A stretch of DNA of 64,000 nucleotides from Gammaproteobacteria bacterium (GTDB lineage: Bacteria > Pseudomonadota > Gammaproteobacteria > SZUA-229). Below are positions 48,178 to 63,417 of this stretch, one piece after another. Position 1 is the stretch's first letter; each line of letters starts with the position of its first letter. A program made the translations under genes and the position numbers. The stretch is taken from positions 1-64,000 of the forward strand of contig JALWPK010000062.1 of the NCBI GenBank assembly GCA_026995045.1, given 5' to 3'. Under the pieces are notes generated by a model, which saw nothing but the letters and a program-made list of their open reading frames with translations, was not told where the DNA came from and ran no database searches.

Positions 48178-49307
48178 TTGCTTATCTCCTCGCGGCGGTA
48201 GCGCTCGCTTTTGACTTCGCCGTCATGGGTCAGCACGGTGTTGGCCAGCACCTCGTCTTCCCAGTCCAGCGCCAGTTCGGCATCCTCGGTAATGAAGGGA
48301 GAAATCAGGTTGAACAGATTTCGGGCGTACATTTCGCTGGCGTGCACCGGCGTCTGGCTGGGCACGTTGAGCGGGCCATGAATGGTGACGCGGCTTTGAT
48401 AATCGACAGTTTCGCCCGGCGCGGTGAGTTCGCAGTTGCCGCCGCCTTCCGAGGCCAGGTCGACGATTACCGCGCCGATTTTCATGCCGTCGACCATATC
48501 GGCGGTGATGATTTTGGGCGAGGGCCTGCCCGGAATCGCCGCCGTGGTGATGACCACATCGCTTTGCTGCACATGCTTGGTCAGCACTTCGAGCTGCTGC
48601 GCTTTTTCTTCCTCGGTCAGTTCACGCGCATAGCCGCCTTCACCATCTGCATGCACGCCGGTGTCGATAAACTTCGCGCCCAGCGATTCGCACTGCTCCT
48701 TGGTGGCGGAGCGCACATCGTAGGCTTCGACGATGGCGCCCAGACGCTTGGCGGTGGCGATGGCCTGCAAGCCGGCGACGCCCGCGCCAATAATCAATAC
48801 CCGCGCCGGGCGGATGGTGCCGGCGGCGGTGGTCAGCATGGGAAAGAACACGCTGGCCAGGTCGGCGCCCATCAATACGCCCTTGTAACCGGCAATCGAC
48901 GCCTGCGAGGACAACGCGTCCATCGACTGCGCGCGGGTGATGCGCGGCACCAGCTCCATCGCCAGCGAGGTGATGTTTTTCTCGCACATTTTGCGGGTGA
49001 TGTCTTCGTTTTTGTGCGGCTGCATGAAACCGACTATCACCACGCCGTCATCAATCATCTCCAGCTCTTCCAGCGACGGCGGCTGCACCTTGAAAATCAG
49101 GCTGGCGCCCTTGTACAGCTCGGCCGGGGTATCGATGATTTCCACGCCTTCAAAGGCTTCATCCGGAAAATGCGAGGACAGCGCCGCGCCCTTTTCCATG
49201 CAAACCTTCACGCCCATGTCGAGCAGGCGCTTTGCGATGCCGGGTTCGAGCGCAATGCGGCGCTCGCCAGGCATGATTTCGTTGGGAACAGCCAGACGAA
49301 TTGGCAT
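48174..49307 (-). CDS. pntAA: NAD(P) transhydrogenase alpha-1 soluble subunit
   Basis: NAD(H)-binding domain I of transhydrogenase, 377 residues. Start RLAVPNEIMPGERRIALEPG; NAD fold VLIIGAGVAGLQAIATAKRL; RQD-loop-like region DALSSQASIAGYKGVLMGA. First gene of the pnt operon with a GGAG ribosome binding site; the promoter should lie in the 200 bases before hemH. Confidence 0.95.
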   Translation of the reverse strand: MPIRLAVPNEIMPGERRIALEPGIAKRLLDMGVKVCMEKGAALSSHFPDEAFEGVEIIDTPAELYKGASLIFKVQPPSLEELEMIDDGVVIVGFMQPHKNEDITRKMCEKNITSLAMELVPRITRAQSMDALSSQASIAGYKGVLMGADLASVFFPMLTTAAGTIRPARVLIIGAGVAGLQAIATAKRLGAIVEAYDVRSATKEQCESLGAKFIDTGVHADGEGGYARELTEEEKAQQLEVLTKHVQQSDVVITTAAIPGRPSPKIITADMVDGMKIGAVIVDLASEGGGNCELTAPGETVDYQSRVTIHGPLNVPSQTPVHASEMYARNLFNLISPFITEDAELALDWEDEVLANTVLTHDGEVKSERYRREEISK

Positions 49308-49505
49308 GTTGAACTCCAGTGATTATTTCAGGTTATTTTTTATTTGATTTGAGAGGCCGACAGTGGGGACGCCCACCGTATCGAATCAAGTTGGCTCATG
49401 TTACAGGAATAACGTAGCAGAATGAATATAGGTTCCCATTTGATATTTTGCAAATCATTCCCAAAGATGAATCACGCCGCCGTATCTGCTTAAATAGCGC
49501 CAGTC

Positions 49506-50531
49506 TTGAACCACCGGCCTGATTTCTTGCTCTCATCCAGCCACAATCACGCACGCACCGGCATTCTGCTGGTTAACCTGGGCTCGCCCGATGCGCCGAC
49601 AACGCCCGCGCTGCGGCGCTATCTGGCGGAGTTTCTTGGCGACCCGCGCGTGGTGGAAGCGCCGCGCTGGCTGTGGTGGTTCGCCATGCATGGCGTGATT
49701 CTGCGCATTCGCCCGCCGCGCTCCGCCAAATCCTACTCCCGCATCTGGATGGATGACGGCGCGCCGATGGGCTCGCCGCTGATCTCCATCAGCTATCGCC
49801 AGATCAAGGCGCTGCGAGCCAGATTCGCTGCTGACGACAATGTGGTGGTGGAGCTGGCGATGCGTTACGGCAATCCCTCGATTGCCAGCGCCCTGGCAAA
49901 ACTGCAACAGGCGGGCATCGAGCAGCTGATCGTGCTGCCGCTGTATCCGCAGTATTCCGCCACCACCACCGCCACGGTGTTCGATGAAGTCAGCCGCCTA
50001 CTGCAACAACTGCGCGTCATTCCGGGGCTGTGCTTCATTCGCGATTATTACCGCCACGAGGCATATATCAATGCAGTGGCGAACAGCATTGAACAACACT
50101 GGCGCGAGCATGGCCGCGCGCAAAAACTGCTGTTTTCCTTCCACGGCATCCCGCAACGCTACGTCGATGCCGGCGACCCCTATGCCGAACAGTGCCAGCA
50201 TACAGCCGAGCGCATCGCGGCGCGCCTGCAACTGCAACGTGAAGAATGGATGCTGGTGTTCCAGTCGCGCTTTGGCCGCGAACCCTGGCTGCAACCCTAT
50301 TGCGACAAAACGCTGGAGGCGCTGCCGCAGCAAGGCGTGAAATCGGTTGACGTGGTCAGCCCTGGCTTCGCCGCCGACTGCCTGGAAACACTGGAAGAAA
50401 TCGATATGGAAAACCGCGAGGTATTTCTGCGGGCCGGTGGTGAGCAGTTTCACTACATCCCTGCGCTCAATAATCGCAGCGAACATATCGATGCGCTGTT
50501 CGACATCCTGCAACCACACCTGCCGGGTTAG
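49506..50531 (+). CDS. hemH: Ferrochelatase
   Basis: Inserts Fe2+ into protoporphyrin IX, last step of heme synthesis. Landmarks: GILLVNLGSPDAPTTPALRR, YPQYSATTTATVFDEV, the catalytic histidine in LLFSFHGIPQRYVDAGDPY and Glu in VVSPGFAADCLETLEEI. The start appears to be TTG at 49506: the frame is closed by TAA at 49491, and no ATG or GTG precedes the conserved N-terminus. Weak translation start is therefore likely. Confidence 0.93.
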   Translation: MNHRPDFLLSSSHNHARTGILLVNLGSPDAPTTPALRRYLAEFLGDPRVVEAPRWLWWFAMHGVILRIRPPRSAKSYSRIWMDDGAPMGSPLISISYRQIKALRARFAADDNVVVELAMRYGNPSIASALAKLQQAGIEQLIVLPLYPQYSATTTATVFDEVSRLLQQLRVIPGLCFIRDYYRHEAYINAVANSIEQHWREHGRAQKLLFSFHGIPQRYVDAGDPYAEQCQHTAERIAARLQLQREEWMLVFQSRFGREPWLQPYCDKTLEALPQQGVKSVDVVSPGFAADCLETLEEIDMENREVFLRAGGEQFHYIPALNNRSEHIDALFDILQPHLPG

Positions 50532-50540
50532 GGTTCGTAT

Positions 50541-51056
50541 ATGTCAAAACCAGTCAAGCCCATGGTCGGCGTCAGCCGCTGCCTGCTGGGCGGCGCCGTG
50601 CGTTACGATGGCGCATCCAGACCCTGCGTCATCGTCATCGAGCAATTCAGCAAACTGTTTGACCTGATCCCGGTGTGCCCGGAAGTCGAAGCTGGACTGA
50701 CCACGCCACGCCCACCGGTACAGCTCACCGGCAATCCGCAACAACCACGCATGACCGGTCGCGACAATCCGGAACTGGATGTCACCGGCGCCATGCTCGC
50801 ATATTGTGATAAACGCATACCGCAACTGAACCGGCTCTCCGGCTTCATCTTCAAAAACCGGTCGCCCAGTTGCGGACTGGGCAGCGCGCCCTTGTTTGTT
50901 GATGGGGAATGTGCATCTGAAACAATGGACGGCTTATTCGCCGCAGCGCTGCGCAGGCGCTATCCGCAGTTGCCGGTGATTGATGAGCTGGGGTTACTCA
51001 ACAGCACCCGCCGAAAAAACTTCATCAGTAAGGTTACGGCGGCCGGCAGGCTGTAA
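50541..51056 (+). CDS. DUF523 protein (YbbK-like)
   Basis: 171-residue DUF523 protein. Conserved cysteines lie in GVSRCLLGGAVRYDG, LIPVCPEVEAGLTTPRPP and KNRSPSCGLGSAPLF. This pattern recurs in the family and suggests a metal or thiol site; function unknown. Nine bases after hemH. Its TAA stop falls in the left end of a degenerate palindromic element. Confidence 0.88.
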   Translation: MSKPVKPMVGVSRCLLGGAVRYDGASRPCVIVIEQFSKLFDLIPVCPEVEAGLTTPRPPVQLTGNPQQPRMTGRDNPELDVTGAMLAYCDKRIPQLNRLSGFIFKNRSPSCGLGSAPLFVDGECASETMDGLFAAALRRRYPQLPVIDELGLLNSTRRKNFISKVTAAGRL

Positions 51057-51184
51057 AAAGTCTCCGGCGAGTCGAGACAATGCAAAATCCGGCGAAAAGG
51101 CGCGGTTTACAACCAATAAAGAGCATGTTGAGCCGAATTTTAACGCCGTATCGCGCCGCATGTGGCACTTTCGACAGCCTGTGG
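51045..51184. repeat. Degenerate copy of the 30.9 kb palindromic element
   Basis: Left end GGCAGGCTGTAAAAAGTCT, right end GCACTTTCGACAGCCTG, with internal GCAAAATCCGG, GAGCATGTTGAGCCG and TTAACGCCGTATCGCGCCGC shared with the complete copy. It is shorter (about 140 versus 211 bases) and its arms are mutated. It separates DUF523 from the cas promoter region. Confidence 0.75.
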
Positions 51185-51236
51185 CTCCCCCCCCCTGCCA
51201 ATAGCCATTTATTTCACAGCCGCATAATGCAAAACT

Positions 51237-51264
51237 ACTGGTTCGGGAACCGGCTTTTGAACCA
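51237..51264. promoter_or_regulatory. Inverted repeat upstream of cas1
   Basis: CTGGTTC and GAACCAG are perfect complements 14 bases apart, 36 bases before the cas1 ATG, and GGTTCGGGAACC inside adds a nested palindrome. Candidate operator or mRNA hairpin for the cas operon; a role is inferred. Confidence 0.4.
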
Positions 51265-51299
51265 GACTAAAGCGCAAGACTTTCTGGGTAACAAGAACC

Positions 51300-52262
51300 A
51301 TGGAACAGCTAAGCAACCTGAAAGCAATACTGCATTCGAAGCGCGCCAACATTTTCTATCTAGAGAAATGCCGCTTGATGCAAAAAGACGGGCGCGTACT
51401 TTACCTGACAGATGAGCAGGATAAAAAGCAATACTGGAATATTCCCATTGCCAACACCACCGTCATCCTGCTCGGAACCGGCACATCAATTACACAGGCG
51501 GCTGCAAGAATGCTGGCTTCCGCCGGGGTGCTGATCGGTTTCTGTGGGGGCTGCGGCACGCCGTTGCTAATGGGCAATGAAATCGAATGGCTCACTCCTC
51601 AAAGTGAATACCGCCCCACTGAATATGTACAGGGCTGGCTGACATTCTGGTTTGACGAAACCAAACGGCTTCTGGCAGCCAAACGCTTTCAAACCCAGCG
51701 CATCGACTATATCAGGCGTGTCTGGAATAAAGACAAGGACTTGCAACAGGCGGGCTTTGACGCCAACGAAAAATCCGTCGCCGCCGCTCTGGATCACTTT
51801 TCCGCCAGAATCGAACAGGCGCACAACACCACACAGCTGCTGCTGACCGAAGCCGAACTCACTAAAAAACTTTACAAGACAGCTATCAACCACACTCGTA
51901 TGGGCGATTTTGTCCGGGACTACAACGGTGAAGACAAGGCAAACGCGTTCCTCAATCATGGAAACTATCTGGCCTACGGGCTGGGCGCAACAACGCTATG
52001 GGTGCTAGGCATTCCACATGGCTTTGCCGTCATGCACGGAAAAACACGCCGTGGCGCACTGGTATTCGATGTGGCAGACCTGATCAAGGACGCCATCATA
52101 CTGCCGTGGGCATTTGTTTGCGCCAGGGAAGACATGTCCGAACAGGATTTTCGCCAACAGGTATTACAAAAGTTTACCCAACACAAGGCGCTTGACTTCA
52201 TGTTTGAATGCGTCAAACAGGCGGCCCTGCAAACCAGGAGCAGCCATCAGGACGGCGAATAA
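51300..52262 (+). CDS. cas1: Cas1, type I-F integrase
   Basis: Spacer-acquisition integrase, which works with the Cas2 domain of Cas2-3. The sequence fits the I-F subfamily in length (320) and content. Active-site metal residues are a Glu in LTEAELTKKLY (E184 or E186), H246 in VMHGKTRRG and D260 in FDVADLIKD; the H-D spacing of 14 equals that of the Pseudomonas protein. The ribosome binding site is weak. Unlike standard I-F loci, its 3' end overlaps an antisense vapC by 16 bases instead of joining cas2-3. Confidence 0.95.
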   Translation: MEQLSNLKAILHSKRANIFYLEKCRLMQKDGRVLYLTDEQDKKQYWNIPIANTTVILLGTGTSITQAAARMLASAGVLIGFCGGCGTPLLMGNEIEWLTPQSEYRPTEYVQGWLTFWFDETKRLLAAKRFQTQRIDYIRRVWNKDKDLQQAGFDANEKSVAAALDHFSARIEQAHNTTQLLLTEAELTKKLYKTAINHTRMGDFVRDYNGEDKANAFLNHGNYLAYGLGATTLWVLGIPHGFAVMHGKTRRGALVFDVADLIKDAIILPWAFVCAREDMSEQDFRQQVLQKFTQHKALDFMFECVKQAALQTRSSHQDGE

Positions 52263-52615
52263 GCCATGTTCATTTCTTTTGCAACAGCCTGTAAACGCCG
52301 GTCTTTTGTCCACAACAATACATCGCCCGCCAATGCTGTTGATGCGAGCAGATACAAATCAACCAGGCCGATGCCTTTTCCAAACAGACGGTTCTTCTCC
52401 AAAAAATACATAGCCTCATCATGGTCGGCTTCATCCAGTCCCGGCAACGAGCCCCACAAGCTCAGGAGCTGCTTACGCTCCTTCAAATGGCCACATGCAA
52501 GTTCACCCAGCACCATGGAGTGCATACACACAACAGCCTCTTCAAGCAGCCTGGCCAGTCGCGTGTCGCCGGAACGCAAGAAATCAATCCAGACCGATGC
52601 ATCCACCAGAACCAT
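52247..52615 (-). CDS. vapC: VapC PIN-domain toxin
   Basis: PIN-domain ribonuclease toxin, 122 residues. Acidic catalytic residues are in LVDASVWIDFLR, LGELACGHL, GIGLVDLYLLAS and LWTKDRRLQ. It lies on the opposite strand between cas1 and cas2-3, and its last 16 bases overlap cas1. Its start shares one base with the vapB stop (TGATG). Confidence 0.93.
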   Translation of the reverse strand: MVLVDASVWIDFLRSGDTRLARLLEEAVVCMHSMVLGELACGHLKERKQLLSLWGSLPGLDEADHDEAMYFLEKNRLFGKGIGLVDLYLLASTALAGDVLLWTKDRRLQAVAKEMNMAYSPS

Positions 52616-52809
52616 CAGCTTTCAGAACGCCGGCGCGGAACCTTCTTCAAGCCAGGCTCGCTGCCCCCCAATTTCGCCAGCCGCCTGGCGCTTTCCCTTT
52701 CAATCAAGGCCTTCAATGCCTGACGAATCAAAGCCGTTTTCTCACCCGTTTGCGTCAGGCGCGCCGCCTGCTGGTACAAGTCATCATCAATATTTATCGT
52801 GGTGCGCAT
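52615..52809 (-). CDS. vapB: VapB antitoxin
   Basis: Ribbon-helix-helix antitoxin (RTTINIDDDLYQQAARLTQ, then EKTALIRQALKALIERESA) with a basic tail that should wrap VapC. ATG at 52809 matches the usual MRTTINID start; an earlier ATG at 52848 lies within the operator. It is the first gene of the module and represses its own promoter in known systems. Confidence 0.92.
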   Translation of the reverse strand: MRTTINIDDDLYQQAARLTQTGEKTALIRQALKALIERESARRLAKLGGSEPGLKKVPRRRSES

Positions 52810-52826
52810 ATCTTTTACCAACACAT

Positions 52827-52845
52827 CATAATAAGCATCATTATG
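52827..52845. promoter_or_regulatory. Candidate VapB operator, shared with the cas2-3 promoter region
   Basis: CATAAT and ATTATG form an inverted repeat around AAGCATC, 18 bases upstream of vapB; GCATCA and TGATGC overlap it as a second pair. The site is also 46 bases upstream of the cas2-3 start on the other strand, so VapB binding could affect both. Confidence 0.45.
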
Positions 52846-52890
52846 CATACGTTTTGATGCGTTTTCAACGATAGCAGAGGCCGCCCCACC

Positions 52891-55800
52891 GTGATCGTCA
52901 CCTTCGTTTCAGAATGTGAAAAAAAAGCATTAAACCGCACCCGCCGCGTACTGGACGCCTTCGCCAACCGCATCGGCAGCCGCACCTGGCAAACCGTCAT
53001 CACCGAAGAAGGCTTGCGGGCAGTGAAAAAACTGCTGCGTAAAACCGCCACCAAAAACACCGCCGTTTCCTGCCACTTGATTCGGAGCCGCAGTCGCAGT
53101 GAATTGTTGTGGGTGGTGGGGAATAAGAGCAAATTTAATGAGCAAGGGATTGTGCCTGCGAATATTACGGAAACCGAAATAGAGCAGTTTATGGATAAAT
53201 ATCAATGGAAAACCTTTGATGTTATTAAATATGCATCAGCAATCGCCGGACTGTTTCACGATTTTGGCAAGGCAACGGTTTTATTTCAAAGGAAAATAAA
53301 TCCCGATGAAAAAACACCAAACTACGAACCCTACCGGCATGAATGGATTTCATTTCGTTTATTTCAGGCATTTGTTGGAAAGCAGACGGATGAAGCATGG
53401 CTTAAAGCACTCAGTGATGTCAGCAATGAGCATTTTACTCACTGTTTCAAAGATGGATTAGATAAGGGTGACAAACCGAAAATATCGAATTTGCCCAAGT
53501 TTGCAAAACTTGTGGCGTGGTTGATTGTGACCCATCACAAACTCCCTGTTTACCCGGAATGGAAAGAAAACAACAAGCCTGATTTGAAATATGTCGACCA
53601 ATGGATGGACGAAAATTTTAATGCTTTGTGGAATTCACATAACTGTCACGATACCGATCAGCAAGACAGAATCACTGAAAACTGGCAATTTTGCGATTTA
53701 CCAACACAAAGCATGCAGTGGCGATCCAAAGCCTGTACATTGGCTTCTGAGGCAATGGCCAACATGAAGCCCTGGCTGAACAATGAAACAGATTGGTTGC
53801 ATGAGCAATTGTTTACCACTCATTTATCTCGCCTCAGTTTGATTCTGGCAGATCATTATTATTCTTCGCTTAAATTTGACCAGTTGCGAGCAATAAAGGC
53901 CGGACAATGGCGCAATCCGAATTACCTGGTTTATGCCAATACAGATTGGCTTGATGGAAAAAAACAATACAAACAGCAACTGGATGAACACTTGATTGCA
54001 GTATCACATTTTACTGAAAAAATTGTTACGGATTTAAAAAAACTAAATCACAGCTTGGAGCCATTGGAGTCCAATGAGGCATTAACAGAAAAAGCAGGAT
54101 TCAATGAACCTGATAAAGAGAAGAAGAAAAAAATAATAGAAGAATTTGGCTGGCAGGATAATGCCACTAAATTAGTAGCCAAAGTTGGCAAGGAAGCTAT
54201 AAATAAAGGTTTTTTTGGCATCAACCTGGCTTCAACTGGCAAGGGCAAAACACGCGCGAATGCCAGAATTATGACAGCGCTTGGAGAGCAAACCGGACGT
54301 ATCCGTTTTAGTGTTGCGATGGGGCTGCGAGTATTAACCTTGCAAACAGGTAAAGAATTTCAGGATGAGCTGAATTTAACGGAAAAAGACTTAGCAATAG
54401 CGGTAGGCGGTATTGCTACGAAATTACTTTTTGAACAGAAACAAGATATTCAAAAAGCTGAATCAGATACCCCCCAATCAGCAGAAGAGTCTGGCAGTGA
54501 ATCACAAGAAGAATTAGTCGATGCCGATATGAAAGTACATTACTCAGGAGTGGAAAGTGAACATAGCCTGAGTCCGTGGACAAAAAATCAAAAAGGTTTG
54601 GATGCGCTGATTTCGGCGCCGGTTTTGGTCAGCACTATCGATCATTTGGTGCCGGCAACAGAAGGCACCAAAGGCGGTAAACATATTCCCGCTATGTTGC
54701 GTCTTTTGACTTCTGATCTGGTACTGGATGAACCGGATGATTTTGGTTTGAAGGATTTACCGGCCTTATGCCGCCTTGTGCATTGGGCAGGGATGTTGGG
54801 CAGTCGTGTGTTACTTTCCAGCGCCACACTACCCCCTGCAATGGTTTATGCACTTTTTCAGGCGTATCAAGCGGGTTGGACAGAGTATGCCAAAGCCAAT
54901 CTTGAAAGTAACACAGGCGAAATATTATGCGCTTGGTTTGATGAAAAAACTATCTGTGACGAAGATCGCGTTAAGGCGCTCAATAATTTCCAGGCAAAAC
55001 ATGAAAAACTGATAAATAAGCGCAAGAAATATTTACAGTCACTCCCGCCAAAACGCATTGCAGACATCATTGATGTTCCCGAATCCAACGATAAAAGCAT
55101 TATCGATAATATGGCGGATAGTATTTATGACAGCGCTCTTCGCCTGCACCAGGCGCATTGCCTGACCAATAACGATAAAACGCTTTCCATTGGTTTGGTG
55201 CGCATGGCAAATATCAATCCTTTGGTTGCCGTTGCCAAAGCCTTAATCAACAAAGAGGCGCCCGAAGATACTTGCATCCATTATTGTGTTTATCACAGTC
55301 GTTATCCATTAGCGATTCGCTCTGCCATTGAGAACAAGCTGGACAGATTACTCTATCGGAAGAATGAAGCATCTATCTGGCAACAATCTGAAATTCAACA
55401 CGCTATTGAACAGCAACCAAATGCAAAACATCATATTTTTATTGTGTTGGCATCTCCAGTAGCCGAGGTGGGACGCAATCATGACTATGACTGGGCGATT
55501 GTCGAACCTAGTTCGATGCGTTCCATCATTCAATTGGCTGGCAGGGTTTTAAGACACAGAGACAAAACACCCGATCAAACCAATATACTGTTACTCAATA
55601 AAAACTACAAAGCACTGGCTCACAAAGAAATCTGTTTTGAACGTCCTGGCTTCGAATCCAGTGATTTAATCGTGGAAAACCATGATCTGAATGAGATTTT
55701 GACCAAAGAACAATACCAGCAAATCACAGCTATCCATCGTATCTATCTGCCTGAAAACTATAGAGAGAACAACAAGCATCTTAAAAATCTGGCGCTTTTT

Positions 55801-56253
55801 GAACAACGCGCTTTGGCCAAACAATTGTTTGATGGTGAATACCCCGCTAAAGTGTGGTGGAAGAACCAGCCGCACTGGTGTGGTGAAGTACAACGCCAGC
55901 AACGCTTTCGGGATTCAAAAAAGGATGAAGCCTATTATTTGTGGTTTGATAATAACTCTACATCGCCCAAATGGCGTTGGAAAAATATGCAGGCATCTCC
56001 ACCGGAGTTTGGTGATTTGGCAATCATTGAAATGGCAGAACTTGAATTTAAAGGAAAAGGACAGGCTTTCTGGTTTGAACAGGATGCATTAACGGTTTAT
56101 CAACAACTGGCGGTTGATTTTGGCTGGCCGTTGACAAAAATCAGTGAGCGTTTTGGTCAAGTGAGGCTGATTGAATATGAAACAGGTGGCACAGCAACCT
56201 ACAACTTTCATCCGTATTTGGGTGTTTATCAAGAAATTGGGAGTTACTTATGA
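52891..56253 (+). CDS. cas3: Cas2-3 fusion, type I-F helicase-nuclease
   Basis: I-F specific fusion. Residues 1 to about 95 are the Cas2 domain; HD nuclease LFHDFGKATVLF (H123, D124) with RHEWISF; SF2 helicase with Walker A STGKGKT (448-454), DEPDD box from 613, and motif VI QLAGRVLRH from 881. It degrades target DNA and supports adaptation with Cas1. 1120 residues versus about 1076 in P. aeruginosa. The start is GTG with weak AGAGG. Codons up to about residue 80 are GC-rich (near 58%), then drop to about 37% or less. The stop overlaps csy1 (ATGA). Confidence 0.95.
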   Translation: MIVTFVSECEKKALNRTRRVLDAFANRIGSRTWQTVITEEGLRAVKKLLRKTATKNTAVSCHLIRSRSRSELLWVVGNKSKFNEQGIVPANITETEIEQFMDKYQWKTFDVIKYASAIAGLFHDFGKATVLFQRKINPDEKTPNYEPYRHEWISFRLFQAFVGKQTDEAWLKALSDVSNEHFTHCFKDGLDKGDKPKISNLPKFAKLVAWLIVTHHKLPVYPEWKENNKPDLKYVDQWMDENFNALWNSHNCHDTDQQDRITENWQFCDLPTQSMQWRSKACTLASEAMANMKPWLNNETDWLHEQLFTTHLSRLSLILADHYYSSLKFDQLRAIKAGQWRNPNYLVYANTDWLDGKKQYKQQLDEHLIAVSHFTEKIVTDLKKLNHSLEPLESNEALTEKAGFNEPDKEKKKKIIEEFGWQDNATKLVAKVGKEAINKGFFGINLASTGKGKTRANARIMTALGEQTGRIRFSVAMGLRVLTLQTGKEFQDELNLTEKDLAIAVGGIATKLLFEQKQDIQKAESDTPQSAEESGSESQEELVDADMKVHYSGVESEHSLSPWTKNQKGLDALISAPVLVSTIDHLVPATEGTKGGKHIPAMLRLLTSDLVLDEPDDFGLKDLPALCRLVHWAGMLGSRVLLSSATLPPAMVYALFQAYQAGWTEYAKANLESNTGEILCAWFDEKTICDEDRVKALNNFQAKHEKLINKRKKYLQSLPPKRIADIIDVPESNDKSIIDNMADSIYDSALRLHQAHCLTNNDKTLSIGLVRMANINPLVAVAKALINKEAPEDTCIHYCVYHSRYPLAIRSAIENKLDRLLYRKNEASIWQQSEIQHAIEQQPNAKHHIFIVLASPVAEVGRNHDYDWAIVEPSSMRSIIQLAGRVLRHRDKTPDQTNILLLNKNYKALAHKEICFERPGFESSDLIVENHDLNEILTKEQYQQITAIHRIYLPENYRENNKHLKNLALFEQRALAKQLFDGEYPAKVWWKNQPHWCGEVQRQQRFRDSKKDEAYYLWFDNNSTSPKWRWKNMQASPPEFGDLAIIEMAELEFKGKGQAFWFEQDALTVYQQLAVDFGWPLTKISERFGQVRLIEYETGGTATYNFHPYLGVYQEIGSYL

Positions 56254-57752
56254 GTGAGAGACAAATTGATGCAGAAGTAATAGCGATGAAAATCAAGGAA
56301 TATATTGTGGATCGAATGCAGTCAAAAGAGCTTCACTTGTTAAAAGACAAGCCTAAAGATGGTAAGGGTGGAATTATTCATAAACTGATAGCTAGAGTTG
56401 AATCTTTGGATTTATCAAATAATGAAAAAATTGAATATATAAAAAAGCAAAAAAAACCAAAGGAGCAATTAGATATGGATTTTCAAAAAGAAAAATATGA
56501 GAAGTTAATAGCATTATTTAGTGTCCCTCCTCATGAAATTATTGATGAGTATCATAATGCTATGAAAAAGATATCAAACGAACACGATATTTTTCTCTGG
56601 CTAGATCAAGCAGCAAAAAGAGCGGGTGGTAGAAAATATGCAACACATATTGCAAAATTAACACATTCTAATATCTCTACTAGCGCAAGCAGCTTCTATG
56701 ATAAAGATTTCAATATAGCCCCTAAATACCTGACAACATCTTCTATAGCCAAAAAAGATATTGATATTACAGGAAATGCGGGTGTTTCTCATTACGTTTC
56801 ATTATTAGATATAGAGCACAATGGTAACTCTTTGAGAGATTATGTATTAGCGGATGATACTAGTCCGTTTGATTATATTTCAAATAATATGGAAATTTCT
56901 AAAAAATGGATTATGGGTTTCAAACAAGTTTTTTCACCAAACAAACCATGCACACATTCATTGGCAAAACAGGTCTTTTTCCCTATTTGTGCTAAATCAT
57001 ATCACTATAATTTATTAGTTCCACTGGTATCTTCATCACTAGCTCATAATTTTCATAGGCTAAAAAAGAAAATAAGAGAAATAGCAATAACGGATAAATA
57101 TACTAATAACATAGTCGCCAGACTGCCAAACAATGCAGTTATAAAAGTCACAGCAAGCAGGGATGCACATAGAAATGTTTCTAAATTGCATGTAGATAGG
57201 AATGGAGAGCTCAATTTATTTTCAACACGACCTCCCATTTGGCAATCCAAGATAAAACCACCTATCTACAAAAAATCACTATTTAGCGACATACATAATT
57301 CAACCATAGCTACCGAAATTGATTATTTACGGGATTTTTTAATTCGCTTTAAAAAGCTGGATATCAGCATCAAAAAACCCAAGCGCAAACAACACATTGA
57401 CCGCTGGGTCAATAATATTATTGACGAATGTTTGTTCTATGTGGGAACCATCCAGAATTTACCTTCCGGCTGGTCGAAAAATGACCAGATCAAACTAAAA
57501 AAATCACACCAATACTTATTAGATCCTTATCGACTGGATGAGGATTTTCAATCAGAACGCCATAATAGAGACTGGCAAAGTTCGATTTGTATCGATTTTG
57601 CACAGTGGTTGAATTACCGGCTCAGAGATAAAGAATTTACGCCACAAGCGGAACATACCCGTTTATGGAAAAGAATGCTGGAACAACCGCTTCGGGAATA
57701 TATGGAGCCAGTTGAAGAAAAGATAAAACAAATGATGAAGGAAGCCGTATGA
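56250..57752 (+). CDS. csy1: Csy1 (Cas8f), Cascade large subunit
   Basis: Large subunit of the I-F Cascade, which recognises the PAM together with Csy2. Identified by position and by Csy1-like segments such as ISTSASSFYDKDFN, SSLAHNFHRLKKKIREIA and LPSGWSKNDQIKLKKSHQY. At 500 residues it is longer than the 434 of P. aeruginosa Csy1; the extra seems to be a charged N-terminal stretch. The first 1100 bases are the most AT-rich coding DNA in the window (some lines about 25% GC). ATGA overlaps on both sides. Confidence 0.88.
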   Translation: MSERQIDAEVIAMKIKEYIVDRMQSKELHLLKDKPKDGKGGIIHKLIARVESLDLSNNEKIEYIKKQKKPKEQLDMDFQKEKYEKLIALFSVPPHEIIDEYHNAMKKISNEHDIFLWLDQAAKRAGGRKYATHIAKLTHSNISTSASSFYDKDFNIAPKYLTTSSIAKKDIDITGNAGVSHYVSLLDIEHNGNSLRDYVLADDTSPFDYISNNMEISKKWIMGFKQVFSPNKPCTHSLAKQVFFPICAKSYHYNLLVPLVSSSLAHNFHRLKKKIREIAITDKYTNNIVARLPNNAVIKVTASRDAHRNVSKLHVDRNGELNLFSTRPPIWQSKIKPPIYKKSLFSDIHNSTIATEIDYLRDFLIRFKKLDISIKKPKRKQHIDRWVNNIIDECLFYVGTIQNLPSGWSKNDQIKLKKSHQYLLDPYRLDEDFQSERHNRDWQSSICIDFAQWLNYRLRDKEFTPQAEHTRLWKRMLEQPLREYMEPVEEKIKQMMKEAV

Positions 57753-58942
57753 GCCAATACCTATTGATAAACCATATTCAGGTACAGGGCGCCAATGCTG
57801 TATCCGGGTTTACCTGGGGATTCCCCGCGATTACCCACTTTCTAGGTTTTGTACACAATCTGAATAGAAAAATTGCTAACAAGGAGAAGTTCAAAGGTAT
57901 TCGATTGAATGGATGCGCTGTTATTGCGCATTCACATCAGGTGCATACCTACGCATTTAACCAGTTTGTGCAAAACAGAACGACTGCATTTCAATACAAA
58001 GAGCAATCGAAATATAAAGTGGGAACGCCGCCAGTTATTGAAGAAGGTAAGATGGATATGGATATTTCCTTACTCATCGCTTGTGAAGGCAATATTGGCG
58101 GCGATAGAAAAGAGGCGTTTATTCAGTGGCTTGAAACCATTTGTCAACGACAACGTCTGGCTGGCGGAACCATTTTAAACATTGCCGCTATCAATCTTTT
58201 TAGTGTTGAAGGTGAAAACAGCCGAAATAATTTACGCGCCATGATACGTCAATTATTGCCCGGTTTTGTACTGCTCGATAGATCTGCTTATCTGGAAAAG
58301 CATTTTGACTCGTTACAAGAAAAAAATCCTGAAGCAGAAGTGTTCCATACCTGGATGGATTTTATCACCTTAAAACAAAAAGCACGACCTGTTTATGACT
58401 TGATCAATCGACACCTGACTCAAATGTCTGAAAAGCAGACTGACAGTGATGAAGCACAAAAATTGTTAGAACAATGGCAACAGCATTTAGACGAGCCTTA
58501 TGAATCAGAAAAAATACCGGATGAATTGAAAAACTATTTCGCCGGGATTGAGGAAACAAAAAATAACAAAAAACTTTTAGCCCAATGGGCGTCTTATTGT
58601 GAACCAAATGAAAAAACCGATGCTGTTTGGGAATACATCAAAAAGCCAGAGCCGGGCTTTCTGGTGCCGATTATGACCGGTTACAAAGCCATTTCACCTG
58701 TTTATAAAAATCACAAAGTGGCTAATACGCGAGACAGCGAAACCGATGTCTGTTTTGTTGAAGCGGTACACACTATTGGTGAATGGCAAGGTGTCCATCG
58801 GATAAAAGATGAAACCTTGTTAAAACAAACCCTTTGGGATTACCACTACGAAAACAACTGGTATTTATGCCGTCAAAAAACCGTAGATGAATTGACGCAT
58901 AGCAACCAAAATGAAGAACCCTTGAATGACGATTATTCTTAA
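57749..58942 (+). CDS. csy2: Csy2 (Cas5f), Cascade subunit
   Basis: Cas5-type subunit that caps the 5' handle of crRNA. The start MSQYLLINHIQVQGANAVSG FTWGFP is highly typical of Csy2, as are LNGCAVIAHSHQVHTYAFNQ and the C-terminal SETDVCFVEAVHTIGEW. At 397 residues it exceeds the usual 320-340. The extra length is an acidic helical insert around residues 215-290 (QKLLEQWQQHLDEPYESEKI). Confidence 0.9.
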   Translation: MSQYLLINHIQVQGANAVSGFTWGFPAITHFLGFVHNLNRKIANKEKFKGIRLNGCAVIAHSHQVHTYAFNQFVQNRTTAFQYKEQSKYKVGTPPVIEEGKMDMDISLLIACEGNIGGDRKEAFIQWLETICQRQRLAGGTILNIAAINLFSVEGENSRNNLRAMIRQLLPGFVLLDRSAYLEKHFDSLQEKNPEAEVFHTWMDFITLKQKARPVYDLINRHLTQMSEKQTDSDEAQKLLEQWQQHLDEPYESEKIPDELKNYFAGIEETKNNKKLLAQWASYCEPNEKTDAVWEYIKKPEPGFLVPIMTGYKAISPVYKNHKVANTRDSETDVCFVEAVHTIGEWQGVHRIKDETLLKQTLWDYHYENNWYLCRQKTVDELTHSNQNEEPLNDDYS

Positions 58943-58962
58943 ACCTGTAATGGAGATGAAAA

Positions 58963-60030
58963 ATGAGCGATAAAACAATACCCACACCCAGCATGTTATC
59001 TTTCGAACGCAAACTGGAATGTTCCGATGGCTTGATGTTTTCCGGAAATTGGAAGGATTTAGACAAAAATTCAAAAGAAGCATGGCATCCAATTATAATT
59101 GGAAATCCACGCACTAACAGAGGGACACAGGCTATGTTCATGAAAGAAGGTGAACGTGCCGATATTATCAAGCCAAATATTCTCGAAGGTGATTATGCAT
59201 ATCTGCCAATGGATCAAGATGCTTTAAAACTCAGCTTTACTCTAAGAGTTGTTGGCAATTTAGGCAAACCCTTTGCCTGCAACAAACCTGACTTTGCAGA
59301 GGCAATAGAGAAAAAGGTCAGCGAGTTTAATAAATCAGAAAATATAAAAGACTTGGCCTTCCGTTATGCCTATAACATTGCAAATGGTCGTTTTTTATGG
59401 CGCAACCGTGTAGGCGCAGAACAAATTGAAATTAGAGTTAAGCACCAATCCGGTGAAGAACCTTTTAAATTCAATGCCTATGATTTTTCATTAAATGATT
59501 TTGATAAAAATAGTGATCATTCAGACTTGCTAAAACTGGCTGATCTAATCAAAAACGGTTTACTGGGAGATGATGAAACATTTGTACTGCTCGATGTGGC
59601 CGCCTATGTCAAATTAGGCAAAGGGCAACATGTTTACCCATCACAGGAAATGAATATGAGAGAAAAAAAGAAAAGGTTATTCAAGTTAAATGATTGTGCA
59701 GCTATGCACAATGTCAAAATAGGCAACGCCATTCGCACCATAGATTCCTGGTATGGCGATACCATGCTCATTAAAGTGGGAGGAAAAGATAAGAAAGATA
59801 AAAATAAAACAGAGACTATTGCTATTGATTCAGAATCCAAGCATCCCATTGCGATTGAACCCTATGGTTCTGTTACTCAACATGGCCGGGCTTACAGACC
59901 GACGAAAATCGATCTTTATACCTTGATGATGGACTGGGTGAATAATAAACAAATAGAAGAAAACCAACAGAAGTTTGTTGTTGCCAACCTGATTCGTGGC
60001 GGTGTCTTTGGTGGAGATGCAGAAGGATGA
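58963..60030 (+). CDS. csy3: Csy3 (Cas7f), Cascade backbone subunit
   Basis: Backbone protein, six copies of which line the crRNA spacer. Csy3-like segments: MLSFERKLECSDGLMFSGNW, ASVARYN-type region replaced by LAFRYAYNIANGRFLWRNRV, and IRTIDSWYGD. 355 residues, near the family size (342). GGAG ribosome binding site; 20 bases after csy2, the only real gap in the interference operon, which may allow separate high-level translation. Confidence 0.92.
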   Translation: MSDKTIPTPSMLSFERKLECSDGLMFSGNWKDLDKNSKEAWHPIIIGNPRTNRGTQAMFMKEGERADIIKPNILEGDYAYLPMDQDALKLSFTLRVVGNLGKPFACNKPDFAEAIEKKVSEFNKSENIKDLAFRYAYNIANGRFLWRNRVGAEQIEIRVKHQSGEEPFKFNAYDFSLNDFDKNSDHSDLLKLADLIKNGLLGDDETFVLLDVAAYVKLGKGQHVYPSQEMNMREKKKRLFKLNDCAAMHNVKIGNAIRTIDSWYGDTMLIKVGGKDKKDKNKTETIAIDSESKHPIAIEPYGSVTQHGRAYRPTKIDLYTLMMDWVNNKQIEENQQKFVVANLIRGGVFGGDAEG

Positions 60031-60623
60031 AATACTATCAGGACATAACCCTGCTGCCCGATGCCGAGATCACCCTCGGCTTCATCTGGCAAAAAGTCTA
60101 TCAACAAGTTCATATCGCCTTGGCAGAAAATAAAATAGGCGAAAATCAGTCTGCCATTGCCGTTGCTTTTCCCAAATATGGCAGCAAGGGGTTTCCGTTA
60201 GGCAATAAATTACGTTTACTTGCTGATAACGAATCTCAACTGGAGAACCTGGCTGCGGAGAAATGGCTGAGCAAACTAAATGACTATTGTCATATTAAAT
60301 CTATCAAGGCCACACCCACAGATATCAACATATATGCCTGCTATAAGCGGAAGCAGTTTAAAAGCAATTTGCTAAAGGAAGCACAGAGGCGCGCACAATA
60401 CAAAAACGAGCCGCTAGAAGACGCCTTGGCGCATTTTCAGCACTATGAGACTGCGTGCGATTTACCCTATATCAATATGACCAGTTTATCGATGCCGGAA
60501 ACCCAAAACGCCAGCAACCATTTCAGGCTATTTATCGAACAGGAACTGTACGACAAGCAGCGGGAAGGTCAATTTAATTGCTATGGTTTGAGTAAAACAG
60601 CTACCGTACCGCATTTTGACTAA
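60027..60623 (+). CDS. csy4: Csy4 (Cas6f), crRNA-processing endonuclease
   Basis: Cuts pre-crRNA at the 3' base of the repeat hairpin and stays bound to it. The catalytic His29 is in the same position as in P. aeruginosa Csy4 (WQKVYQQVH). The arginine-rich helix is KRKQFKSNLLKEAQRRAQYK (about 107-126); the conserved serine is probably S153 or S155 in INMTSLSMPE; then NHFRLFIEQ. 198 residues. ATGA overlap with csy3. Confidence 0.93.
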   Translation: MKYYQDITLLPDAEITLGFIWQKVYQQVHIALAENKIGENQSAIAVAFPKYGSKGFPLGNKLRLLADNESQLENLAAEKWLSKLNDYCHIKSIKATPTDINIYACYKRKQFKSNLLKEAQRRAQYKNEPLEDALAHFQHYETACDLPYINMTSLSMPETQNASNHFRLFIEQELYDKQREGQFNCYGLSKTATVPHFD

Positions 60624-60653
60624 AAAATTCCCAAGCTCTTTTACAATCCGGAA

Positions 60654-60666
60654 AATCAATAAGTTA
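60654..60666 (+). promoter_or_regulatory. IHF consensus site in the leader
   Basis: AATCAATAAGTTA fits WATCAA-N4-TTR with no mismatch. IHF bending of the leader is required for spacer integration in I-E and I-F systems studied so far. Confidence 0.65.
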
Positions 60667-60717
60667 CAACAGCCCACAAAAATTGGGTTAAATCATACAT
60701 ATCCTGTTAAGTTGCTG

Positions 60718-60745
60718 TTGTAACTTGTTTTTTTGCATTTATAAT
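60718..60745 (+). promoter_or_regulatory. Candidate array promoter
   Basis: TTGTAA and TATAAT with 16 bases between. The predicted start (about 60752) falls on the first bases of repeat 1, leaving its hairpin and 5' handle intact. Placement is inferred from consensus only. Confidence 0.5.
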
Positions 60746-60748
60746 ACT

Positions 60749-63417
60749 CTTCACTGCCGCACAGGCAGCTTAGAAAGCCTTCGGCTTCGGCCGCGCGTGA
60801 GACTTCGTCTTCACTGCCGCACAGGCAGCTTAGAAATTGTTTTTGAATGCTTATGCAGCCCTTTCCCCCTTCACTGCCGCACAGGCAGCTTAGAAACGGT
60901 ATCGGGATGCAGTGGGATGGAAGCCGAACTTCACTGCCGCACAGGCAGCTTAGAAAGTTACAGGGCGTTGGTTGAGATGCGCTGGCAACTTCACTGCCGC
61001 ACAGGCAGCTTAGAAAGCCGCCACCACTGCCAAGCTGTTTTATGTGATCTTCACTGCCGCACAGGCAGCTTAGAAAGAACGCAGCGATGTGTATGACGCC
61101 GACGAGGTCTTCACTGCCGCACAGGCAGCTTAGAAAATGCTCGGCAATCATTTCGTCGGTTGGGTTCGCTTCACTGCCGCACAGGCAGCTTAGAAATCCA
61201 GACATCGTTCAGTGTTTAGTCACCCGATCTTCACTGCCGCACAGGCAGCTTAGAAAACATAGCGGGCCGGGCCGCGGCGGATGATGTTCTTCACTGCCGC
61301 ACAGGCAGCTTAGAAAAGGAAAAACGATACTGGAGGCCATAGCATGACCTTCACTGCCGCACAGGCAGCTTAGAAACAAACCGGCCGCAAACACAGCTTG
61401 CGCAACTTGCTTCACTGCCGCACAGGCAGCTTAGAAATCGCTCAGCGCATCCGACGGCGTGTTGTCCACCTTCACTGCCGCACAGGCAGCTTAGAAAACC
61501 GACTAAACCCTGGTAACCGACTCGGTTTGCTTCACTGCCGCACAGGCAGCTTAGAAAGCCTTCAGCATCCGCTGCGGGTTCCAGTACGACTTCACTGCCG
61601 CACAGGCAGCTTAGAAAAATGCCGGTCAGGCTCGCCGGCGCAACCATATCTTCACTGCCGCACAGGCAGCTTAGAAAGCCAAACGCTTCCACGTCTATGG
61701 CGCGCAGGTCTTCACTGCCGCACAGGCAGCTTAGAAAACGCAAAAACGCGAAACCAAACAGGTCAACATCTTCACTGCCGCACAGGCAGCTTAGAAAATA
61801 GACGTGGAAGCGTTTGGCGGCCGAACCATCTTCACTGCCGCACAGGCAGCTTAGAAAAGTTATCAATGCACCACGAAATTGGCGGGTACCTTCACTGCCG
61901 CACAGGCAGCTTAGAAAGTCAACGCAGGTGTGGGTTAATATCTGGAATACTTCACTGCCGCACAGGCAGCTTAGAAACCAAACACGAGGTGTTCGACGCC
62001 ACCGTTTATCTTCACTGCCGCACAGGCAGCTTAGAAAAAACAGCGCGGCGAGGTCAAGCGCCTGTTTCACTTCACTGCCGCACAGGCAGCTTAGAAAAGA
62101 ACAGCGCGCGCAGGTCGCGGGGCAGTTTCCTTCACTGCCGCACAGGCAGCTTAGAAAAGAAGCCGAGCAGCGCCTTGAGGTGGCCGCCCCTTCACTGCCG
62201 CACAGGCAGCTTAGAAAGAACAGGATGCGCTGAACTACGAGGCCAAACTCTTCACTGCCGCACAGGCAGCTTAGAAAATGACAAAATCGGTTGGTGAGAT
62301 TTTGCATTCCTTCACTGCCGCACAGGCAGCTTAGAAATGCATAAACTCATCTGTCATAGTCATGGCCATCTTCACTGCCGCACAGGCAGCTTAGAAACAA
62401 TGAAAAATCGGACTCGTTAGAAAACAATGACTTCACTGCCGCACAGGCAGCTTAGAAATTGCGAATGTACTCCGGCTCGACAAACACATTCTTCACTGCC
62501 GCACAGGCAGCTTAGAAACCATAGCTCTTTCTGGAAGTCGATGTTTTTCTCTTCACTGCCGCACAGGCAGCTTAGAAATTCCGGCAACGTCTTGCGCGTC
62601 GGGTCGAACACTTCACTGCCGCACAGGCAGCTTAGAAAACCAACAAACAACTGCAACGCGCCCAGCAGCACTTCACTGCCGCACAGGCAGCTTAGAAAAG
62701 CCGGATGTGGAGCCGCCGACGTTGTGGATTCTTCACTGCCGCACAGGCAGCTTAGAAATCGACAAATGATTCTTCAGGAAACACGCATATCTTCACTGCC
62801 GCACAGGCAGCTTAGAAAACCAGCCCGCCGTCCACGTCGGCCAACCCGCCCTTCACTGCCGCACAGGCAGCTTAGAAATGACGGATGCCGCGACCTTCGC
62901 GCTGAATGATCTTCACTGCCGCACAGGCAGCTTAGAAAACACGAATGGCGAATCATGCCAGTAGAGTTTGCTTCACTGCCGCACAGGCAGCTTAGAAATT
63001 GTGGCGTCGCTCCTGAGCGAGCAGGTGGTCCTTCACTGCCGCACAGGCAGCTTAGAAATGTCGAGCAAGTACGACATCACCGCCGACGTTCTTCACTGCC
63101 GCACAGGCAGCTTAGAAACATGAAAGCCGTGCTTAATTACACCAGCAAACCTTCACTGCCGCACAGGCAGCTTAGAAATGGTTGCTGCGGCGGCAACAGC
63201 CGCAACGTTTCTTCACTGCCGCACAGGCAGCTTAGAAAGCGAAGTCTTGCCCGACTGGTTTCAGGCCGCCTTCACTGCCGCACAGACAGCTTAGAAAACT
63301 TGAAATAGGCTTTTATTGGTCTGTTAGTTCTTCACTGCCGCACAGGCAGCTTAGAAATCCACGTCCCATTCCGCTTGCTTCTGGATACCCTTCACTGCCG
63401 CACAGGCAGCTAAGGAA
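60749..63417 (+). CRISPR. Type I-F CRISPR array, 45 repeats and 44 spacers
   Basis: Repeats of 28 bases: first half CTTCACTGCCGCAC, second half AGGCAGCTTAGAAA. The hairpin is CTGCC-GCACA-GGCAG, and Csy4 cutting after it would leave the eight-base handle CTTAGAAA. Repeats are identical except the 43rd (63270, G to A in the stem) and the last (63390, ending GCTAAGGAA). Spacers are 32 bases, except two of 33 (before 61410 and 62431) and one of 31 (before 63270). Transcription is from the csy4 side. Spacers 16 and 18 overlap on opposite strands. No match of a spacer to the rest of the window was noticed, but this was not searched exhaustively. Confidence 0.98.

Follow-up and report, generated by a model that had tools for sequence, protein, structure and literature searches.

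Among the described toxin–antitoxin (TA) units that are tied to CRISPR-Cas systems, CreTA and CrePA come closest to the locus presented here. CreTA was reported from a type I-F system of Acinetobacter, where it lies inside the cas operon, between cas3 and csy1, and is proposed to act as a guard; its toxin is an RNA, its antitoxin is crRNA-like and needs the Csy complex, and 19 more modules were found (PMC10097628). In CrePA, a KilA-N protein toxin is repressed by the crRNA-like CreA together with Cascade (reviewed in PMC12737573). Deletion of a creTA-bearing region in Haloarcula lowered the transcription of downstream cas genes (PMC9458426), and coupled immunity and suicide has been put forward as a general idea (PMC3506569).

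Here, we describe a VapBC pair inside the type I-F operon of a gammaproteobacterium (GTDB lineage SZUA-229). The window, i.e., the whole stretch of DNA that was analyzed, comprises 64,000 nucleotides of contig JALWPK010000062.1 (assembly GCA_026995045.1). Like CreTA, the pair is a TA unit within an I-F cas operon, but both of its partners are proteins, no CreA repeat accompanies it, and its site is the cas1–cas2-3 junction. It shares with CrePA a protein toxin tied to CRISPR-Cas, which here is a PIN protein countered by a protein antitoxin. Plasmid-borne VapBC (VapB of PF09957 and PIN-domain VapC) comprises the same two families in the same order, the best among the matches listed being 50% identical. 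In contrast to ordinary VapBC, the lineage occupying this slot forms a separate clade that, among the sampled genomes, was confined to I-F cas loci. The slot VapBC is a variation on the known theme of CRISPR-linked TA units, of which CreTA and CrePA are the forms to compare. No description of type II TA modules between cas1 and cas2-3 was found in the literature searched, chiefly titles and abstract openings with few subscription papers.

Results

The Window Carries vapBC inside an Otherwise Intact I-F Operon

The type I-F assignment is based on cas1f, cas2-3f, and csy1–csy4, all of which exceed the NCBIfam curated cut-offs, and on an array of 28-bp repeats (Table 1). As in the canonical I-F operon, all six cas genes and the array are present. 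Canonically, cas1 and cas2-3 overlap by 4 bp, which applies exactly to 114 of the 177 junctions analyzed below, whereas in the window they are separated by 628 bp by ORFs (625 bp by profile matches) and enclose a complete vapBC in antisense orientation. Around this insert, the operon is otherwise intact. An earlier note on this DNA had described the opposite-strand module, the size of the gap, and the overlap of vapC with the end of cas1, all of which were confirmed.

The PIN match of VapC to PF01850 scored 40.2 bits (cut-off 23.6) and the match of VapB to PF09957 54.5 bits; the NCBIfam VapC equivalog NF047959 matched weakly and below its cut-off (35 of 80 bits). Sequence searches of the PDB gave no match for VapC at E 0.001 and a marginal one for VapB, to VapB15 (E 0.85). 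One other VapC was found in the window's own genome, with 33% identity. vapB is located directly upstream of vapC and overlaps it by one base (TGATG). The antisense vapB of the earlier note is present, with an extent that we would revise: its ORF opens at 52848, and since the predicted −10 box (52845–52840) comes after this ATG, the conserved MRTT at 52809 is the likelier start. The spacer between vapB and cas2-3 would then measure 81 bp rather than the 42 bp obtained with the upstream start. By reading of the sequence, AGAGG precedes the GTG start of cas2-3 at 52891 by 10 nt.

Table 1. Features of the type I-F locus in the window (IR, inverted repeat).
Feature	Position	Strand	Evidence and remarks
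cas1f	51300-52262	+	TIGR03637, 475 bits
vapC, toxin, PIN domain	52247-52615	-	PF01850, E 6.1e-10; 16-bp overlap of its 3' end with cas1
vapB, antitoxin	52615-52809	-	PF09957, E 1e-14; likely MRTT start 52809 (inferred), ORF open to 52848
Operator-like IR, core GCATCA...TGATGC	52830-52865	.	arms 52830-52840 / 52855-52865
Predicted vapB promoter, TTGAAA-17-CATAAT	52840-52868	-	single match; shuffles average 1.8, weak alone
AGAGG, putative cas2-3 ribosome-binding site	52876-52880	+	inferred from sequence reading
cas2-3f, GTG start	52891-56253	+	TIGR02562, 1040 bits; Cas2 domain PF21384
csy1, csy2, csy3, csy4	56250-60623	+	TIGR02564/02565/02566/02563
CRISPR array	60749-62698	+	28-bp repeats, period mostly 60 bp; 41 copies, listed 30 reach 62698

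Among 36 genomes from the window's genus and family, several of them incomplete, none contained Cas1f above the cut-off. The distribution of the I-F locus in this group, with the same incomplete genomes counted, is patchy, and the locus was probably acquired horizontally.

Sampling of Cas1f Loci

Loci were collected in three overlapping samples, and the combined set is enriched for relatives. The first sample contains the best 80 of 480 Cas1 matches in genome contigs and is biased to relatives of the window's Cas1. An even draw across the class (369 genomes, 43 positive including the window's own) formed the second, from which 41 loci were used (L089–L129); G102 was omitted, as it is cut at a contig edge. 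For the third sample, 301–302 genomes were taken from the order of G284, of which 110 were positive. This added 107 stretches; L093 and L115 were already present from an earlier sample, and three places in which the end of cas1 falls on a contig edge were discarded. Partial or edge matches in the third sample (G439, G498, G434, G441, G405, two in G689, G622:C192, G683, G597, and G639:C103) were left out. The Cas1 of L115, which comes from G284, is identical to that of L020, i.e., Methylotuvimicrobium buryatense 5G. In total, 229 loci with cas1 were obtained, 193 of them non-redundant by Cas1 sequence; among the latter, the cas1–cas2-3 junction could be read in 177. Junctions were set by profile matches, so that individual starts carry a possible error of a few bases.

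The cas1–cas2-3 Junction Is a Recurrent Slot for Type II TA Modules

Gaps at the 177 junctions were shorter than 60 bp in 131 cases, 60–149 bp in 4, 150–499 bp in 8, and at least 500 bp in 34, so that 135 fell below 150 bp. By our own labels and in this relative-enriched set, a type II TA module or antitoxin was present at 29 of the 177 junctions. The overlapping samples contributed 17 of 76 (best Cas1 matches), 3 of 34 (class draw), and 21 of 102 (order draw). Long gaps were mostly of this kind, as 29 of the 42 gaps of at least 150 bp hold a TA module or antitoxin. At the control junctions, gaps of this length were found in 0 of 76 (csy1–csy2), 1 of 61 (csy2–csy3), and 0 of 40 cases (csy3–csy4), i.e., 1 of 177 in total, the sole gap inside csy1–csy4 being one of 164 bp between csy2 and csy3 in L161. 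A second slot was found between cas2-3 and csy1, where 33 of 73 gaps were 150 bp or longer, including 13 of 500 bp or longer.

In type I-F systems, the cas1–cas2-3 junction repeatedly serves as a cargo slot for type II TA modules. An insertion unique to the window genome was rejected, and the window vapBC goes beyond chance, because the order cas1–vapBC–cas2-3 recurs in other genomes. The earlier note had named a chance insertion as the alternative if no related genome kept this order and cas2-3 transcription was independent of VapB; the first of these conditions fails, as other genomes do keep the order, TA modules recur at the site, and the VapBC lineage has so far been seen only there. The module is dispensable, since 131 of the 177 junctions have gaps below 60 bp; the closest readable Cas1 relatives, L009 and L010 (80–81%), are also without it. 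On the Cas1 tree, the presence of TA modules requires at least 21 changes and that of the VapB type 11.

Unrelated TA Families Share the Slot

The window's VapB type was the commonest occupant in the samples, accounting for 16 of the 29 TA-bearing junctions. The remaining types comprise AbrB-PIN, BrnTA, Phd-PIN, ParDE, and TacA/GNAT. Types were assigned by Pfam on representatives (VapB/PIN, MazE-AbrB/PIN, BrnT/BrnA, Phd/PIN, ParD/ParE, and TacA/GNAT) and by similarity for the other loci. In L172, ParE was clear and its partner gave matches below the cut-off only. Small orphan ORFs in L060, L251, and L176 were excluded from the count. Lineages of BrnTA, TacA/GNAT, and PIN types are common to both slots, with 64–84% identity between cas1–cas2-3 and cas2-3–csy1. 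brnT is the leading gene of the BrnTA loci, and an additional small ORF intervenes in L042. Within one related clade, L230 and L231 carry VapBC, whereas L017, L020, and L246 carry AbrB-PIN, the pair found in M. buryatense 5G; L030 holds both. Taken together, this pattern suggests that modules have replaced one another in the slot.

Read by eye, 27 of the 29 loci have TA modules exclusively on the strand opposite to the cas genes; the module of L172 is sense, and L252 is mixed. Counted by TA lineage, the bias is about 7 to 2 in our count, which alone is not significant. Because the modules lie on the opposite strand, the promoter end of the TA module points towards cas2-3.

Genes other than TA modules were also found between cas1 and cas2-3, i.e., Bro-N in L068 (L069 is alike by eye), KilA-N in L111, RhuM in L047, RhuM-Fic in L072, and HTH-WYL in L112. 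The KilA-N, Bro-N, and RhuM genes of L111, L068, L069, L047, and L072 lie on the sense strand, and KilA-N is a CreP-type domain. No repeat pair was found beside the slot genes of these five loci.

The Slot VapBC Forms One Lineage That Probably Moves between Loci

VapC was searched in the class and order draws and then a second time with a profile built from 13 slot VapCs, which slot members match by construction. In the order draw (301–302 genomes), 11 of 61 VapC places adjoin cas1 in the cas1–cas2-3 junction (in G652, cas2-3 lies beyond the contig end), and in the class draw 3 of 32 places are in the junction (G000, G113, and G179). A tree of concatenated VapB and VapC, which omits L236 (no VapB match), L034 (no vapC), and the plasmid copies, placed 15 slot loci in one clade against 58 others (support 92/70, not starred). 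The slot label changes once on this tree, compared to a minimum of 9 changes in 200 shuffles, and likewise once on a tree of VapC only. Non-cas status was judged by coordinates, and broken contigs could hide a cas neighbor. Among the sampled genomes, the window's VapBC lineage has so far been seen only at I-F cas loci.

Distances of Cas1 and VapBC correlated weakly (Mantel r 0.374, with 5 of 5000 permutations as high). In six pairs with estimates, silent-site divergence was lower in vapBC than in cas1 (e.g., 0.15 and 0.22 vs. 0.70), values above about 1 being near saturation; in L074/L221, the divergence of vapC was nearly equal to that of cas1. On these values, strict co-inheritance of vapBC with cas1 is not upheld; the lower silent-site divergence points to a probable transfer of vapBC between loci instead. 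The data suggest that the lineage passes mainly from I-F locus to I-F locus, probably through exchange of a flanked segment.

All 13 aligned slot VapCs share the acidic residues D, E, and D, which we take to be the catalytic PIN residues, and 12 of the 13 have a fourth D. dN/dS of vapC ranged from 0.06 to 0.17 in six pairs, a seventh being saturated, and that of vapB from 0.07 to 0.16, except for 0.44 in the closest pair, in which changes are few. Judged by these ratios, slot vapC is under purifying selection. Decay was observed in L013, in which vapC is frameshifted, and in L034, which has vapB without vapC and a cas2-3 that is cut after about codon 34. In this part of L034 (7231–7936), the frame break is followed, up to the contig end, by a piece resembling the N-terminus of a type II-B Cas9 (TIGR03031, E 4e-25, 88 bits, which as a fragment is below the whole-protein cut-off). 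Either cas9 adjoins an I-F cas1 in L034, or the assembly is chimeric.

Operator Words Are General to the VapB Subfamily

Inside the 81-bp spacer, the inverted repeat overlaps the predicted vapB promoter. VapB regulation of cas2-3 is possible, because this operator-like repeat lies within the spacer shared with cas2-3. Across 15 VapB loci (L030 left out), the spacer measures 80–132 bp. Of the 15 slot vapBs, 12 are preceded by at least one of the words GCATCA, TGATGC, and CATCATTRT, as are 19 of the 31 distinct non-cas vapBs; both hexamers occur in 4 of 15 slot spacers, including the window's, vs. 3 of 31 non-cas upstream regions. By this comparison, the operator words are general to the window's VapB subfamily, and an operator evolved specially for cas2-3 was rejected as the simplest reading. 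The sigma-70 scan of 51000–53200 detected no plus-strand promoter-like sequence; with one promoter vs. 1.8 in shuffles, the scan was uninformative. Terminator prediction gave 2 vs. 4.3 in shuffles. The earlier proposal that VapB controls cas2-3 is weakened by these results, and for the tuning of cas1 by antisense vapC transcription, the sole observation is the 16-bp overlap.

Mini-CRISPRs at the Same Junctions

Mini-CRISPRs, i.e., two degenerate repeats with a spacer of 14–32 nt, were observed between cas1 and cas2-3 in L024, L076, and L174, and between cas2-3 and csy1 in L033, L053, L071, L080, L127, L161, L165, L166, L171, L191, L218, and L233. Each has a CC-flanked target with a perfect 7/7 seed in or at most 300 bp from the same junction, and at most 2 of 200 shuffled spacers equalled these targets. 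By eye, the targets of L071 and L165 directly adjoin a promoter-like sequence ahead of csy1, in the fashion of a CreR-type autorepressor. A TacA/GNAT lineage with 64–91% identity is found in L029, L071, L165, and L240 (cas2-3–csy1) and in L174 (cas1–cas2-3). Four of these loci (L029, L071, L165, and L174) have a mini-CRISPR or repeat pair next to the TacA/GNAT genes, a protein TA module and a crRNA-like regulator thus occupying one slot.

In the window, no CreTA- or CrePA-type repeat was detected in 49000–60740 at up to 12 mismatches with at least 4 of 5 stem pairs, nor a CreA-like repeat in the slot at up to 10 mismatches. A CreTA-like module in the window was rejected, as no repeat-like sequence was found within these limits.

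Discussion

We give about an even chance to the reading that I-F operons hold a TA cargo slot and that the window VapBC, of a lineage so far found only there, works as an addiction module. Addiction, which would stabilize the cas locus, is the mechanism we infer from recurrence and clade structure. vapBC would be transcribed leftwards from its own promoter and autorepressed at the GCATCA/TGATGC operator. Upon loss of the cas segment, by deletion or by replacement with a module-free locus, the labile VapB would be gone first, the VapC RNase would then poison the cells, and the I-F locus would be retained. Because the insertion splits the cas1/cas2-3 overlap, cas2-3 would need its own ribosome-binding site, and its transcription would arise by read-through or from a separate start within the divergent 81 bp. 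VapBC senses only the loss of its own DNA and not the loss of Cas function; since VapB is encoded beside VapC, failure of a Cas protein alone would not release the toxin. The earlier idea that losing the operon would free VapC is therefore kept for deletions that include vapBC and given up for mutation or inhibition of Cas, for which a CreA-like repeat is missing.

It is doubtful, though worth weighing, that VapBC, when bound to its operator, doubles as a repressor of a cas2-3 promoter within the shared 81 bp. Degradation of VapB under stress or infection would then raise Cas2-3, and perhaps Csy, along with VapC. The promoter end faces cas2-3 at 27 of the 29 TA-bearing junctions, the range of spacer lengths and the share of slot spacers with both hexamers fit, and parallels exist in the crRNA-like mini-CRISPRs of L174 and L076, with PAM-flanked targets in the same junction, and in the Haloarcula creTA-region deletion (PMC9458426). 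However, the operator words are also widespread upstream of non-cas vapBs, the window has no plus-strand sigma-70-like promoter within the range scanned, and the orientation bias shrinks to about 7 to 2 by lineage. Similarly unlikely in our estimation is a boundary between adaptation and interference that merely tolerates insertions, at which mobile TA genes accumulate without benefit to the cas locus. The many junctions with gaps below 60 bp, the Bro-N, KilA-N, RhuM, and WYL genes in the same slot, and the decay in L034 and L013 would all be expected from such passengers, but a single VapBC clade in 15 loci, purifying selection, and the predominance of TA modules or antitoxins among gaps of at least 150 bp argue against them. 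Quite improbable is a role as a partner in abortive infection, in which phage attack, through host shut-off or anti-CRISPR, frees VapC, slows the cell, and backs up CRISPR immunity; it agrees with the general idea of coupled immunity and suicide (PMC3506569), but the window has no crRNA-like antitoxin that could sense Cas inhibition.

Addiction remains our preferred mechanism. With little confidence, we consider in addition a dedicated I-F TA socket, in which a CRISPR-specialized VapBC and cas2-3 have one divergent operator in common; the antitoxin would then both guard the locus against loss and adjust interference expression to cell stress. Such a guard-plus-regulator would unite the roles of CreTA and CreR in protein form.

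Among the 177 I-F operons sampled, with relatives over-represented, 29 carry type II TA modules of several unrelated families at the same site (3 of 34 in the class draw), and one lineage has so far been confined to it. The guard idea is testable in a cultured methanotroph, M. buryatense 5G (L020). If it is true, protein TA modules and the RNA-based CreTA would be convergent answers to the problem of keeping a costly and easily lost immunity.
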